Assembly (NCBI RefSeq): GCF_014653155.1
Contig: NZ_BNAF01000011.1
Coordinates: 1-64,000 of the forward strand
Length of the DNA: 64,000 bases
Direction: 5' to 3'
Source: Sphingobacterium griseoflavum
GTDB lineage: Bacteria > Bacteroidota > Bacteroidia > Sphingobacteriales > Sphingobacteriaceae
The position numbers and the translations under genes were made by a program. Below the pieces are notes generated by a model that ran no database searches, was not told the origin of the DNA, and saw only the letters and a list, made by a program, of their open reading frames with translations. The first letter of the stretch is position 1. Each line of letters begins with the position of its first letter. Shown here piece by piece: positions 20,229-24,535 of this stretch.

Positions 20229-20864
20229 ATGAGTTTAAGACTAGGAGATATTGCGCCTAATTTTCAGGCGGAGACATCGGTAGGGCCGATTGATTTCTAC
20301 GAATATATTGATGGGGGATGGGCCGTGTTGTATTCACATCCATCGGATTACACCCCGGTTTGTACGACAGAATTGGGCAGGACAGCACAATTGAAATCAG
20401 AGTTCGAAAAGCGCAACGTAAAGGTGTTGGCATTGAGTGTAGACTCCGTAGAGGATCACCTCAATTGGATCAAAGATATCAACGAAACGCAAAATACCTC
20501 GGTAGAGTTTCCGATTATCGCGGATAAGGATCGTTCCATAGCCGAGTTGTATGATATGATCCATCCAAATGCCTCGGTGACGGCGACAGTGCGTTCGGTT
20601 TTCATTGTTGGACCAGATAAAAAAGTGAAGCTGACACTGACATACCCTGCATCGACAGGACGCAATTTTAACGAGATTTTACGGGTTATCGACTCCCTGC
20701 AATTAACGGATGAATATTCGGTTGCAACACCAGCAGATTGGTCAGACGGACAGGATGTGATCGTGGTGCCGGCAATCAAGACCGAAGATATACCCGCGAA
20801 ATTTCCGAAAGGGTTCACGGAAATCAAGCCGTATTTGCGGGTGACACCACAGCCGAATAAATAG
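20229..20864 (+). CDS. Peroxiredoxin, 1-Cys Prx6 type
   Basis: Thiol peroxidase that reduces hydrogen peroxide and organic peroxides. The 211-residue product has the peroxidatic cysteine C45 in HPSDYTPVCTTELG, the supporting arginine in TVRSVFIVGPD, and the Prx6-type C-terminal dimerisation extension (about 160-211). No second cysteine is present, so it is a true 1-Cys form and needs an outside thiol to resolve the sulfenic acid. It is monocistronic, under a promoter with an operator-like palindrome, and ends at a strong hairpin terminator. Confidence 0.95.
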   Translation: MSLRLGDIAPNFQAETSVGPIDFYEYIDGGWAVLYSHPSDYTPVCTTELGRTAQLKSEFEKRNVKVLALSVDSVEDHLNWIKDINETQNTSVEFPIIADKDRSIAELYDMIHPNASVTATVRSVFIVGPDKKVKLTLTYPASTGRNFNEILRVIDSLQLTDEYSVATPADWSDGQDVIVVPAIKTEDIPAKFPKGFTEIKPYLRVTPQPNK

Positions 20865-20878
20865 GGAGCTGCATAGGA

Positions 20879-20917
20879 AAAATAAGAGCGCGAATCATCA
20901 ATCCGCGCTCTTATTTT
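20879..20917. terminator. Bidirectional terminator, peroxiredoxin and protease genes
   Basis: AAAATAAGAGCGCG (20879-20892) pairs perfectly with CGCGCTCTTATTTT (20904-20917) between the two convergent genes, with T-rich ends in both directions. Confidence 0.88.
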
Positions 20918-20923
20918 AAGCGG

Positions 20924-22018
20924 TTAATAGACTTTCACGATATAAATATATTCTTGAAGACGCTTGATCTGCTCGGTACGATTCAGGCTGCTCAAGCCAT
21001 TACGGTTGCTCAATACAATATTTCCTTTCAAGGCGTCAGCAGGAATGCTGTTCAACGTTTCGAGAAGGGCCTTGGTTTTGATGGCAAAAGCAGCACCATC
21101 AATACCTTTTTGCTTACCGCTGATAATTCCAATAACATGGCCGTCTTTATCCAGAACCGGACCACCGCTATTTCCAGGATTGACCGGTATGGATATCTGA
21201 TAAGCTAGCGTATCCCCTGCATATCCTGTCGATGAGCTAAGATACCCCTGCCCGTATACGGCTTCATCGCGCGGGAACCCGATGGTATAGATATCTTCTC
21301 CCAAATCAGAGTCCTGTTTCTTAAAAGTATACGGAATATTTTTGCTCGATTTAAACGTCGAGTCACTGATATGGAGAATGGCCAAATCTTTCTCCGGGTT
21401 GGTGAAAATAATATCTGCTTTGAAGGATTGTCCGCGGTGGTTTTGCAGATGTACGGAGTCTGCCCCTGTTATAACGTGGTAGTTTGTCACCACATAACCG
21501 TCACGCGTGATCATAAAACCTGTAGCACCAAAATGCATAGTCTCTGTATGATCTTTACCGCTTTTTATATTCTTGATCGCTGCATTGTGTGCATTGACGT
21601 TACGTTTGACGGTGTTCATGTCACGGCGTAAGGCGCTGTAATCAGTAGTTGTCTTTTTAAGGTTGCGATAATAGCCTGTCAGCCAAAGTGTAGAAAAAAC
21701 AGAAACAATGGCGATCGTTGCAGCAACAGCAGCATTCAGCTGCACCTTCCGCCACAGTCGGATAATTTTAGCAGGTTCCTTGATTTCGCTTTCCTGTGCG
21801 TATTTTATTGCATTTTTGTTCAATCTTTCTTTGAAAACCAATCTGGCGTCTGCTTGTTTAAGACGCTGCAGAAATGCTTTGTGCTCCGCAAAAACAGCAG
21901 CGTAAGCAGGGTACTCTACGCAGTATTTTTCAAATGCTGACTGCTCTTCGGGCGAAAGTTCGCCGCGGAGATATTGATCTGCCCATTCTATAAATTCTTG
22001 TTGCCTTAAGCCTTCCAT
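20924..22018 (-). CDS. Membrane-anchored trypsin-like (HtrA-type) protease with anti-sigma-like N-terminus
   Basis: The 364-residue protein has three parts. Residues 1-60 resemble the cytosolic N-terminus of Bacteroidota anti-sigma proteins (WADQYLRGELSPEEQSAFEKY then EYPAYAAVFAEH), without a zinc-binding Cys/His set. A single membrane helix follows at about 92-115, then a charged, likely coiled segment. The S1C trypsin-like domain has its catalytic triad visible: H181 in VTNYHVITGA, D211 in PEKDLAILHI and S284 in VNPGNSGGPVLD. No PDZ domain is present. It lies 13 bases after the sigma factor gene, so the two form an operon. The ATG at 22018 is used; an upstream in-frame start would overlap the sigma gene. 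A regulator of the adjacent sigma factor is the natural inference. Confidence 0.88.
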   Translation of the reverse strand: MEGLRQQEFIEWADQYLRGELSPEEQSAFEKYCVEYPAYAAVFAEHKAFLQRLKQADARLVFKERLNKNAIKYAQESEIKEPAKIIRLWRKVQLNAAVAATIAIVSVFSTLWLTGYYRNLKKTTTDYSALRRDMNTVKRNVNAHNAAIKNIKSGKDHTETMHFGATGFMITRDGYVVTNYHVITGADSVHLQNHRGQSFKADIIFTNPEKDLAILHISDSTFKSSKNIPYTFKKQDSDLGEDIYTIGFPRDEAVYGQGYLSSSTGYAGDTLAYQISIPVNPGNSGGPVLDKDGHVIGIISGKQKGIDGAAFAIKTKALLETLNSIPADALKGNIVLSNRNGLSSLNRTEQIKRLQEYIYIVKVY

Positions 22019-22031
22019 GACACGTTTTACC

Positions 22032-22601
22032 TTACTTTTTAAAAAAAACTTTTTTGAGCCGCTGCAGACACTTGTATTTCTGATTTTTCGCGTTATCGGG
22101 ATTGGTGTATCCAAATTTTTCGCATATATCTGTCATCGAGGCGCTTTTAATATAATAATCATGCAAGATCGTTTTACATGGTTCTCCAAGCATCAAAAGC
22201 GCACCCTCCATTTGAAGCAGGTTTGCCTCGGTAACCATATGCTCCTCGATAGCATCTTCAGCTGCCAGTGAGTCCTCTAGTTGATCAAGCTGATCTTTAT
22301 AATATTTAGATTCTCCACGCGTGAGTTGCTTTAACCACAATCTTTTGGAAATCGCGTACAGAAAAGTTTGCAGCTTACTGCTCAATTCAAAATCGCCGCT
22401 AATCACTTTGTCATAAAGTACCATTACGGTTTCCTGAAAGATATCTTGGGCCTCTTCTCTGCTTCCCTGGTTATTGATAACCATTTTCGCGATGGTGGGG
22501 TAATATAGCGTGTATAACTTATGAATTGCCAAGTTATCGCCAGATTCCATACCACGAAGGATTTCCAAATCAATGTTTGTATCGCTTTTATCCTTACTCA
22601 C
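22032..22601 (-). CDS. ECF-type RNA polymerase sigma factor
   Basis: The 189-residue product has sigma region 2 (LYTLYYPTIAKMVINNQGSREEAQDIFQETVMVLYDKV, then FLYAISKRLWLKQL) and a C-terminal region-4 helix-turn-helix (LLMLGEPCKTILHDYYIKSASMTDICEKFGYTNPDNAKNQKYKCLQRLKKVF). It belongs to the extracytoplasmic-function group and lacks regions 1 and 3. The start codon is GTG; no in-frame ATG lies nearby that would keep region 2 whole. It is followed by the anti-sigma-like/protease fusion. Upstream, past a structured 222-base gap, is the GldJ-like gene on the same strand. Confidence 0.92.
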   Translation of the reverse strand: MSKDKSDTNIDLEILRGMESGDNLAIHKLYTLYYPTIAKMVINNQGSREEAQDIFQETVMVLYDKVISGDFELSSKLQTFLYAISKRLWLKQLTRGESKYYKDQLDQLEDSLAAEDAIEEHMVTEANLLQMEGALLMLGEPCKTILHDYYIKSASMTDICEKFGYTNPDNAKNQKYKCLQRLKKVFFKK

Positions 22602-22704
22602 TTATTAATACCTTTTAAGCTAAATAGTAACCTTCGTATAGACGTTTTTTTTTCTTTTTTATTATTGTTTGCTCGATAAAAAGGATGTGTCGGAACAAAC
22701 AACT

Positions 22705-22823: not shown

Positions 22824-24356
22824 CTAGGGCGTAGAAACGCGTCTTGCTCTGGTTTTCGCTGTTCCCTGTGTGGGGCCAAAAACATTGCCTACCATAGTCA
22901 TTGCACAGCGGAACCCCGTCATCGCGCTGGATTCATCTTGCTGCATAAAACGACGCGTTGCCGGGTTCAACCAATAGGCGCGGTCGTTCCAAGAGCCCCC
23001 TTTAAAAACACGACTTTTATTATTGACCAAGGTCGTTTTTCCATAAAGTTCCTCCATTTCCTCATCCTCTGCGCCACGCGCGTCATATTGGTAAGCGGCC
23101 GTTTGCAGATCGGTACTACGTTGCGCTTGGAGCTCTTCCCATGTTTGTTTCCGCGGAGCCTTTGCCGGTACTTTTATTGGGCGGCCATACTTATCTTTCG
23201 CCAAGATACGACCTTCAGCGTCTTCATATTGGTTGTCCACGAAGACATTACCACGGAAGGGATTGAAGTCTTCAAAATCTTCGAAAGAAAGTTGCCGGTA
23301 TACATCATTTACCCATTCATTGACATTCCCTGCCATATTGTATAAACCAAAGTCGTTAGGTGCGTAGCTCATAACAGGAACGGTGATATCACCACCATCG
23401 TTTAGATCGCCTGCTACACCCATATTGTTGCCACTCGTGATCTTGAAGTTGGCCAACATCCGTCCCTGGTTTTTTCTTTTGTCCGATCGAACACCCAGCC
23501 CACTCCAAGGATAGATCCGGCTATCTTCAATATTGCCAGCTACCGTATTGCCTATAAGTCCGAGTGCTGCATATTCCCACTCTGCTTCGGTGGGCAGGCG
23601 ATAAGGTTGCTTTAAAATGCCATCTTCCATCCGCACCGTGCGACGGCCGTCCGATGCTGCGCCCGGTCTGTTGTCTTTGGGCATATTGGGGCCGTCAATT
23701 CCAGCGCCTTTCAACTGGCCATTCAGATAAATTTCTGTATTAAAAGCGTCGCCAGTACCACGCTGATTTGCTTTCGTTTCGTAATCGACAAGTACGCCAG
23801 AACGGCGTAGTATATGCTCGTTGACTCTATCAGTTCGCCATTGGCAATAAGCATTCGCCTGTTCCCACGACACCCCAACTACCGGATAATCTTGGAATGA
23901 TGGATGACGGAGGTAAAGGTTTACATAAGGCTCGTTATACGAGAGCGGATGCCGCCAAACTAGGGAGTCGGGCAGTGCGTCGTAATACAGTTTGCCATCC
24001 TCGGGAAAATTCTGGGCAATCCAATGCAGATATTCCAGCCAATCCGCGTTGGATACTTCTGTTTCATCGATATAGAAAGATGCTACGGTAACCCGGCGCT
24101 TTAAATTGTCATGTGCATAGCCAAGATCTTCGTTTAAACTTCCACCCATTACGAATGTTCCGCCTTCTACAGCCACCAAGCCCGGGCCAGGAGTTTCTTT
24201 TACTTTTCTATTTATCTGCAAGCCCCCGTTGTAGGAGTCGTTGTAGGCTACGCCGGTTTTTGGAGACACGTCTTTCCTAGCCCTTTTGCTCTTGCAGGAA
24301 TGGAATGTAGCCATGGCGGATAAAATTACCAACAGGAAGAAGATCTTTTTTAACAT
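22824..24356 (-). CDS. GldJ-like gliding-motility/T9SS lipoprotein (SUMF1 fold)
   Basis: The 510-residue protein starts with a lipoprotein signal (lipidated Cys in ATFHSC, near residue 21). The mature part opens with TGVAYNDSYNGG and PGPGLVAVEGGTFVMGG, then carries a formylglycine-generating-enzyme/SUMF1 fold: VVGVSWEQANAYCQWR, YRLPTEAEWEYAALG, GLYNMAGNVNEWVND and VFKGGSWNDRAYW. This order and the long insertions match GldJ (and its relative GldK), outer-membrane lipoproteins needed for type IX secretion and gliding in Bacteroidota. They are not thought to act as sulfatase activators. ATG 24356 is used because it gives the cleanest signal peptide; another ATG lies 21 bases upstream. GldJ rather than GldK is my judgement. 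Confidence 0.82.
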   Translation of the reverse strand: MLKKIFFLLVILSAMATFHSCKSKRARKDVSPKTGVAYNDSYNGGLQINRKVKETPGPGLVAVEGGTFVMGGSLNEDLGYAHDNLKRRVTVASFYIDETEVSNADWLEYLHWIAQNFPEDGKLYYDALPDSLVWRHPLSYNEPYVNLYLRHPSFQDYPVVGVSWEQANAYCQWRTDRVNEHILRRSGVLVDYETKANQRGTGDAFNTEIYLNGQLKGAGIDGPNMPKDNRPGAASDGRRTVRMEDGILKQPYRLPTEAEWEYAALGLIGNTVAGNIEDSRIYPWSGLGVRSDKRKNQGRMLANFKITSGNNMGVAGDLNDGGDITVPVMSYAPNDFGLYNMAGNVNEWVNDVYRQLSFEDFEDFNPFRGNVFVDNQYEDAEGRILAKDKYGRPIKVPAKAPRKQTWEELQAQRSTDLQTAAYQYDARGAEDEEMEELYGKTTLVNNKSRVFKGGSWNDRAYWLNPATRRFMQQDESSAMTGFRCAMTMVGNVFGPTQGTAKTRARRVSTP

Positions 24357-24535
24357 AAGCTGATCTATTACTATCATAGGGTAGAGTTATGGACTGACCA
24401 ATCAAAAGTAATAAATAAATGTTATTATGTATAGCGTGGGGACGGGTAAATGATTTTTTTTGTGGTGTGGCATAGCATGCAAAACACCATATGTGTAGAT
24501 TGCTGATATTTCGTGTACAATCGCCGATTATTATA

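Follow-up and report, generated by a model that had tools for sequence, protein, structure and literature searches.

The window, that is, the whole stretch of 64,000 nucleotides of Sphingobacterium griseoflavum DNA that was analysed, carries on its minus strand a gene for an ECF sigma factor of 189 amino acids (P0002; 22032-22601, GTG start) and, 13 bases behind it, one that encodes a protein of 364 amino acids (P0001; 20924-22018, with the ATG at 22018 and the stop codon ending at 20924). P0002 matched the TIGR02937 sigma70-ECF model (E = 1.9e-15) and was assigned a Sigma70_r2 domain by Pfam. P0001, hereafter the fusion protein, combines an anti-sigma-like helical domain, a membrane helix and an HtrA-type protease domain in one chain. 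The coordinates hold for the arrangement given in an earlier note on this DNA, which had placed an ECF sigma gene and an anti-sigma/protease fusion gene, in that order, in one operon. A longer, TTG-started ORF reaching 22114 was rejected as the start of the fusion gene, because it runs into the sigma gene and lacks conservation. Downstream, a bidirectional, terminator-like inverted repeat with A/T flanks (20879-20917, assigned to neither strand; −23.5 kcal/mol, z −7.0) separates the operon from the convergent peroxiredoxin-like gene, and this strong repeat could terminate both convergent genes. By inspection, the convergent neighbour (20229-20864, plus strand) looks like a 1-Cys peroxiredoxin and the upstream neighbour (22824-24377, minus strand) like a lipoprotein of the GldK/FGE-sulfatase type. 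At the corresponding locus of one Sphingobacterium genome (L033, 902-1476), the sigma factor is represented by two overlapping ORFs of 135 and 60 amino acids, a split that is due to a frameshift or a sequencing error.

The N-terminal domain of the fusion protein resembles anti-sigma factors

Residues 1-80 of the fusion protein (21779-22018, minus strand) make up the anti-sigma-like helical domain. The HxxxCxxC zinc motif (ZAS) is absent from P0001 and from its aligned relatives. By profile-profile comparison (hhalign), the N-terminus matched 29 canonical anti-sigmas of the same family with an E-value of 3.8e-7 and the whole fusion profile matched canonical Bacteroidota anti-sigmas with an E-value of 2.5e-8; the best value among 20 column-shuffled control profiles was 0.014. 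The canonical anti-sigmas of the Sphingobacteriaceae (NF052375) share with the fusion protein the N-terminal helical pattern LELYVLGDLSPEE..EVE..A..YPE...EL.EIE, detected by profile comparison, but have another outer domain, without a protease. The NF052375 “anti-sigma factor” model itself matched residues 15-132 of the full protein (1.2e-4, under its cut-off) and, when 42 diverse N-termini were scanned singly, the commonest family models were zf-HC2 (15) and NF052375 (11). An AlphaFold2 model of residues 1-91 (pLDDT 83), searched with Foldseek against 350,542 PDB chains, ranked RsiW first and second, RslA fifth and the partner of SigK twenty-third, each with a non-significant E-value. A Pfam KIF9 match on residues 24-75 (0.003) and PPAR matches obtained among PDB sequences with the N-terminal profile (0.01) were dismissed as chance helical matches. 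As in class I anti-sigmas (ASDI), an anti-sigma-like helical N-terminus, predicted to be cytosolic, is encoded by a gene adjoining that of its ECF sigma factor. The earlier note had called the N-terminus anti-sigma-like and had suggested that its first ~90 residues be compared with anti-sigma domains; the similarity was found by profile comparison, and the Foldseek ranking of the AlphaFold2 model and the family models point the same way.

The same domain also occurs outside the fusion. The sister sigmas and their partners (L237-L256) bring together an anti-sigma domain, a membrane helix and varied outer parts. At 14 of 20 sister-sigma loci, the next gene encodes the same N-terminal domain and membrane helix with different outer domains, so that only the outer module differs, and the N-termini of proteins adjoining sister sigmas matched that of the fusion protein in hhalign with an E-value of 1.3e-18. 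These partners probably make up a broad anti-sigma family, modular in build and so far poorly described. If the N-terminal domain were not an anti-sigma, the gene would encode a membrane protease merely co-transcribed with the sigma factor, and it would be unsurprising that no anti-sigma family model from Pfam or NCBIfam attains its curated cut-off on P0001. However, the profile comparison, the family counts and the structure ranking contradict this reading and, above all, so does the presence of the same domain in the same position next to sister sigmas, where the outer parts are unrelated, which leaves it very improbable. We consider it highly probable, from these comparisons, that the N-terminal domain is an anti-sigma.

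The outer part carries an HtrA-type protease domain with an invariant catalytic triad

A single membrane helix (residues 94-114; 21677-21739, minus strand) was delimited by Kyte-Doolittle hydropathy and conservation. The hydropathy maximum of 1.92, at residues 96-114, marks the sole hydrophobic segment of the fusion protein. Entropy and triad counts were obtained from 123 unique full-length fusion sequences, in which the membrane-helix region (residues 92-115) had an entropy of 1.70 bits. It is followed by a conserved coiled segment, YSALRR.MN..KR (residues 125-151; 21566-21646, minus strand), predicted as a helix at low confidence, whose residues 127-151 had a mean entropy of 1.65 bits, the anti-sigma domain being less conserved (1.9-2.9). 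This coiled segment is a candidate site for regulated cleavage or for subunit contact. The AlphaFold2 model of the full-length protein, which is weak (mean pLDDT 65.5, with residues 77-164 below 50), shows helices at residues 6-17, 23-35, 37-76, 86-113 and 125-151 and then a beta-rich domain.

Residues 163-316 (21071-21532, minus strand) were assigned to an HtrA-type (S1C) serine protease without PDZ from Pfam, NCBIfam and PDB relatives. Pfam Trypsin_2 matched residues 165-298 (E = 2.4e-24), the best NCBIfam model on the protease was TIGR02037 (9.8e-26, under its cut-off), and the relatives in the PDB were MucD, AlgW and DegS. The catalytic His181 (21476-21478) and Asp211 (21386-21388) and the nucleophile Ser284, within GNSGG (21167-21169), all read on the minus strand, are each present in 123/123 sequences. 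Pfam detected no PDZ domain in the fusion protein, and the 48 residues left after the protease part could not accommodate one. Hundreds of genomes retain the architecture, at 41-87% identity, and the triad is exceptionless, so that the observation cannot be put down to chance. Judged from the sequence, the product of the fusion gene is quite likely an active protease. Thus far the domain reading of the earlier note stands in each of its parts: the one membrane helix coincides with the hydrophobic peak, the coiled segment past it is recovered as a conserved predicted helix in a low-confidence part of the model, the His-Asp-Ser triad is intact, the numbering of Ser284 as nucleophile is correct and the lack of a PDZ domain agrees with both Pfam and the short C-terminal remainder.

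The sigma and fusion genes are conserved as a pair

Survey of Bacteroidia genomes located the fusion in 93 of 94 genomes of the same genus, in 227 of 236 good genomes of the same family and, in a sample of the class, in 51 of 296 genomes belonging to ten families, one of these 51 having a shortened N-terminus. An orthologous sigma gene lies directly upstream in 50 of the 51 fusion genomes of the class sample; in the remaining one, the contig ends there. When the sigma factor was searched in 17 genomes with absent or broken fusion matches, the sole ortholog lay at a contig end, and the remaining matches were distant paralogues scoring below 100 bits. Within the family, genomes devoid of the fusion have no orthologous sigma either, save for this one at a contig end. 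The pair is therefore not restricted to this strain, a point on which the earlier note had made its reading depend, and sigma and fusion are inherited together. The sigmas adjoining the fusion group together in one clade (SH-aLRT 99), which is compatible with one origin of the fusion. In another genome (G533, family f66), a fusion gene without the first 40 residues (L171, 3617-4624) is accompanied by the sigma gene and the promoter; the shortening could come from the gene start or from a frameshift.

The operon is preceded by a conserved motif, a predicted ECF promoter

A predicted autoregulated ECF promoter, GGTTAC-N16-TATTAA (22605-22632, minus strand), was recognised as a conserved motif, with GGTTAC at 22627-22632 and TATTAA at 22605-22610 on the same strand, separated by a spacer of 16 nt. 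Of 91 unique regions upstream of sigma genes, all 91 contain GGTTAC and 81 the strict motif; GGTTAC-N16-TATTAA is the sole conserved DNA upstream of the sigma gene, and the site described here is its sole strict match in the window. The predicted promoter ends 3 nt before the GTG of the sigma gene, a spacing shared by nearly all Sphingobacteriaceae loci, and with the −10 element so close to the start codon the sigma mRNA would probably be almost leaderless.

Genome wide, the strict pattern gave three matches in this genome versus four for the reversed control, which rules out a large strict-motif regulon here. One match is the operon's own, and the other two lie, by inspection, in or beside genes for outer-membrane SusC/SusD-like proteins; the operon's own site was the only convincing strict site in this genome and in two others of the genus. 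Across 22 whole genomes, most matches to a stricter form fell at the sigma/fusion locus, and the scattered rest was about as numerous as the reversed-pattern control. Being conserved upstream of the sigma gene and concentrated at this locus, GGTTAC-N16-TATTAA is a good candidate for the sigma factor's own promoter. As far as the motif allows us to predict, the sigma factor very likely autoregulates its operon, the pair apparently turning itself on, and its strict regulon seems limited in size and confined to the locus. The motif also renders the regulon directly testable.

With no convincing strict site in these three genomes other than that of the operon itself, the fusion protein would be the main predictable product of the sigma factor. 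The protease could accordingly be the output of the response, acting in quality control, with the anti-sigma part as a feedback brake and with another site-1 protease or a conformational change releasing the sigma factor; exported relatives of the protease without the anti-sigma part, described below, are in line with this possibility. On the other hand, conservation of the juxtamembrane region is more readily explained by a regulated cut or a subunit contact than by a free tether, lipoproteins are further predicted targets in most other genera, and the genome-wide counts cover strict sites, beyond which the regulon may be larger. Taking both sides into account, we regard a role of the protease as output as unlikely, although it is the main rival of the model given below.

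Small lipoprotein genes share the promoter motif in other genera

In other genera, genes for lipobox proteins of 60-88 amino acids lie behind the same predicted promoter, which is often divergent. These small lipoproteins contain simple, low-complexity and often heptad-like repeats (DTT, VDSAAAK, DTTVVDTT), are frequently lysine-terminated and resemble small lipoproteins of the Braun type. A lipoprotein gene with the promoter was found at 18 of 20 family loci outside Sphingobacterium and at 10 of 20 loci in other families (28/40 together). In contrast, none was found within about 3 kb in the 64 Sphingobacterium loci, though the fusion is kept there, nor in control loci (0). Tandem copies reach up to three (locus L110, in the set L101-L119 and L171-L189).

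The presence of such putatively co-regulated neighbours raises the question of whether the protease domain binds or cuts a separate partner, for example an envelope protein that has stalled or one of the small lipoproteins nearby, its binding state then being relayed through the coil to the anti-sigma domain with no self-cleavage. A precedent for binding is RsgI9 of Clostridium thermocellum (structure 7sjy), an anti-sigma whose S1C-peptidase-like outer domain is described as binding cellulose and not as performing the cutting step; its self-cleavage is carried out by a separate periplasmic domain (PMC12203970). Structure 7sjy was among the Foldseek matches of the full-length model, but RsgI9 belongs to a SigI/RsgI system, and no RsgI match on the fusion protein was obtained from Pfam or NCBIfam. 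An invariant triad would, however, be needless in a pure binding domain, and the fusion is retained in Sphingobacterium loci with no lipoprotein nearby. Sensing through a separate partner is hence distinctly improbable.

A model for release of the sigma factor

Release of the sigma factor by the fusion protein's own protease, the reading to which we give a modest preference, would proceed as follows. The N-terminal helices would hold the sigma factor in the cytoplasm, as homology and gene pairing suggest, while the membrane helix would place the HtrA-type protease in the periplasm, consistent with the topology and with relatives bearing signal peptides. Envelope damage, probably sensed as misfolded protein or as a freed peptide, would switch the protease on. 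The protease would then cleave its own juxtamembrane segment or that of a neighbouring subunit, in the way that DegS makes the site-1 cut in RseA, and the RseP homologue encoded in the same genome (244 bits, over the cut-off) would cut the membrane helix and release the sigma factor. The latter would transcribe its own operon from the GGTTAC-N16-TATTAA motif and, in most other genera examined, would also drive expression of one to three very small, repeat-rich lipoproteins encoded next to it. Because the anti-sigma carries its own protease, inhibitor and probable trigger would be one chain, and self-transcription would yield more sigma factor, protease and inhibitor, that is, amplification with built-in braking.

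Our confidence differs among the parts of this model. A membrane anti-sigma from which the sigma factor is freed through a self-cleaving protease and RseP, in an autoregulated operon, is what we find modestly probable. Release by self-cleavage as such is finely balanced, with doubt slightly prevailing, since the protease might free the sigma factor while leaving its own chain intact, or might serve some other purpose. The broader proposal of a widespread one-chain switch that has a site-1 protease of its own, cleaves itself or a partner subunit and commands a response consisting mostly of itself and one to three lipoproteins is more tentative still. If the protease does perform the site-1 step in cis, the fusion would represent a minimal transmembrane stress switch and, were the model true, a clean system in which to examine the activation of an HtrA protease devoid of PDZ.

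Relationship to known systems

In the sigma-E pathway of Escherichia coli, the anti-sigma RseA and the HtrA site-1 protease DegS are separate proteins, and the contrast that the earlier note drew with this two-protein scheme is fair. In both systems, one ECF sigma factor is paired with a membrane anti-sigma and with a periplasmic serine protease of the HtrA type, and an RseP homologue is present here; in the fusion, however, both functions would reside in one chain without PDZ, so that peptide sensing through a PDZ domain, as in DegS, would be impossible. The curated DegS model TIGR02038 scored 60.4 bits on the fusion protein versus a cut-off of 422.95. HtrA (S1C) proteases usually bear at least one C-terminal PDZ domain; the fusion protein shares their trypsin-like domain and His-Asp-Ser triad but not the usual PDZ.

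RsgI9 and the Dma/Reo proteins are nearer in concept than RseA/DegS. Dma/Reo proteins (EcfO-Reo and Das1-Dma1, from Bacteroides and Phocaeicola) are one-chain anti-sigmas with exchanged outer modules (PMC13088901, PMC9308784, PMC13114119). As here, a Bacteroidota ECF sigma gene is followed by a gene for a one-chain anti-sigma composed of a cytosolic domain, a membrane helix and a swapped outer module, and the envelope-stress output includes lipoproteins. In contrast, their C-terminus is an outer-membrane beta-barrel, where the fusion protein has a protease and a tail, and their lipoprotein targets (NigD) are of another kind. In the papers searched, which included few subscription papers, no fusion of an anti-sigma with a trypsin-like protease was found for Bacteroidetes or Bacteroidota, which is weak evidence of absence. 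Module-swapped Bacteroidota anti-sigmas and the S1C-like domain of RsgI9 are thus known, and the anti-sigma/protease fusion appears to be new; the GGTTAC-N16-TATTAA promoter and the neighbouring lipoproteins are additions beyond the earlier note.

Control of Bacteroidota ECF sigmas is poorly explained, and the pair described here is conserved and single-copy in whole Bacteroidia families. A class I anti-sigma neighbour has been detected for 6% of Bacteroidetes ECFs versus 32% over all phyla (PMC7406223). The fusion provides an instance of a divergent class I domain, joined to a protease, that curated models match below their cut-offs.

Exported protease relatives have a related C-terminal tail

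The C-terminal tail (residues 347-364; 20927-20980, minus strand; consensus RTEQIKKLQDYIYIVKVY), defined by entropy and predicted fold, is the best-conserved part of the fusion protein (1.05 bits) and is modelled by AlphaFold2 as a helix (347-357) followed by a strand (358-363). A restriction of this tail to the anti-sigma fusion was ruled out, because relatives of the protease with signal peptides carry a related one; the tail is therefore a feature of the protease subfamily rather than of the connection with the sigma factor. These relatives are Bacteroidia proteins of 350-750 amino acids (L150-L169) that have the same protease and a related tail, with no related sigma gene adjoining. Many of them have signal peptides, and their N-terminal parts vary and include MORN repeats.
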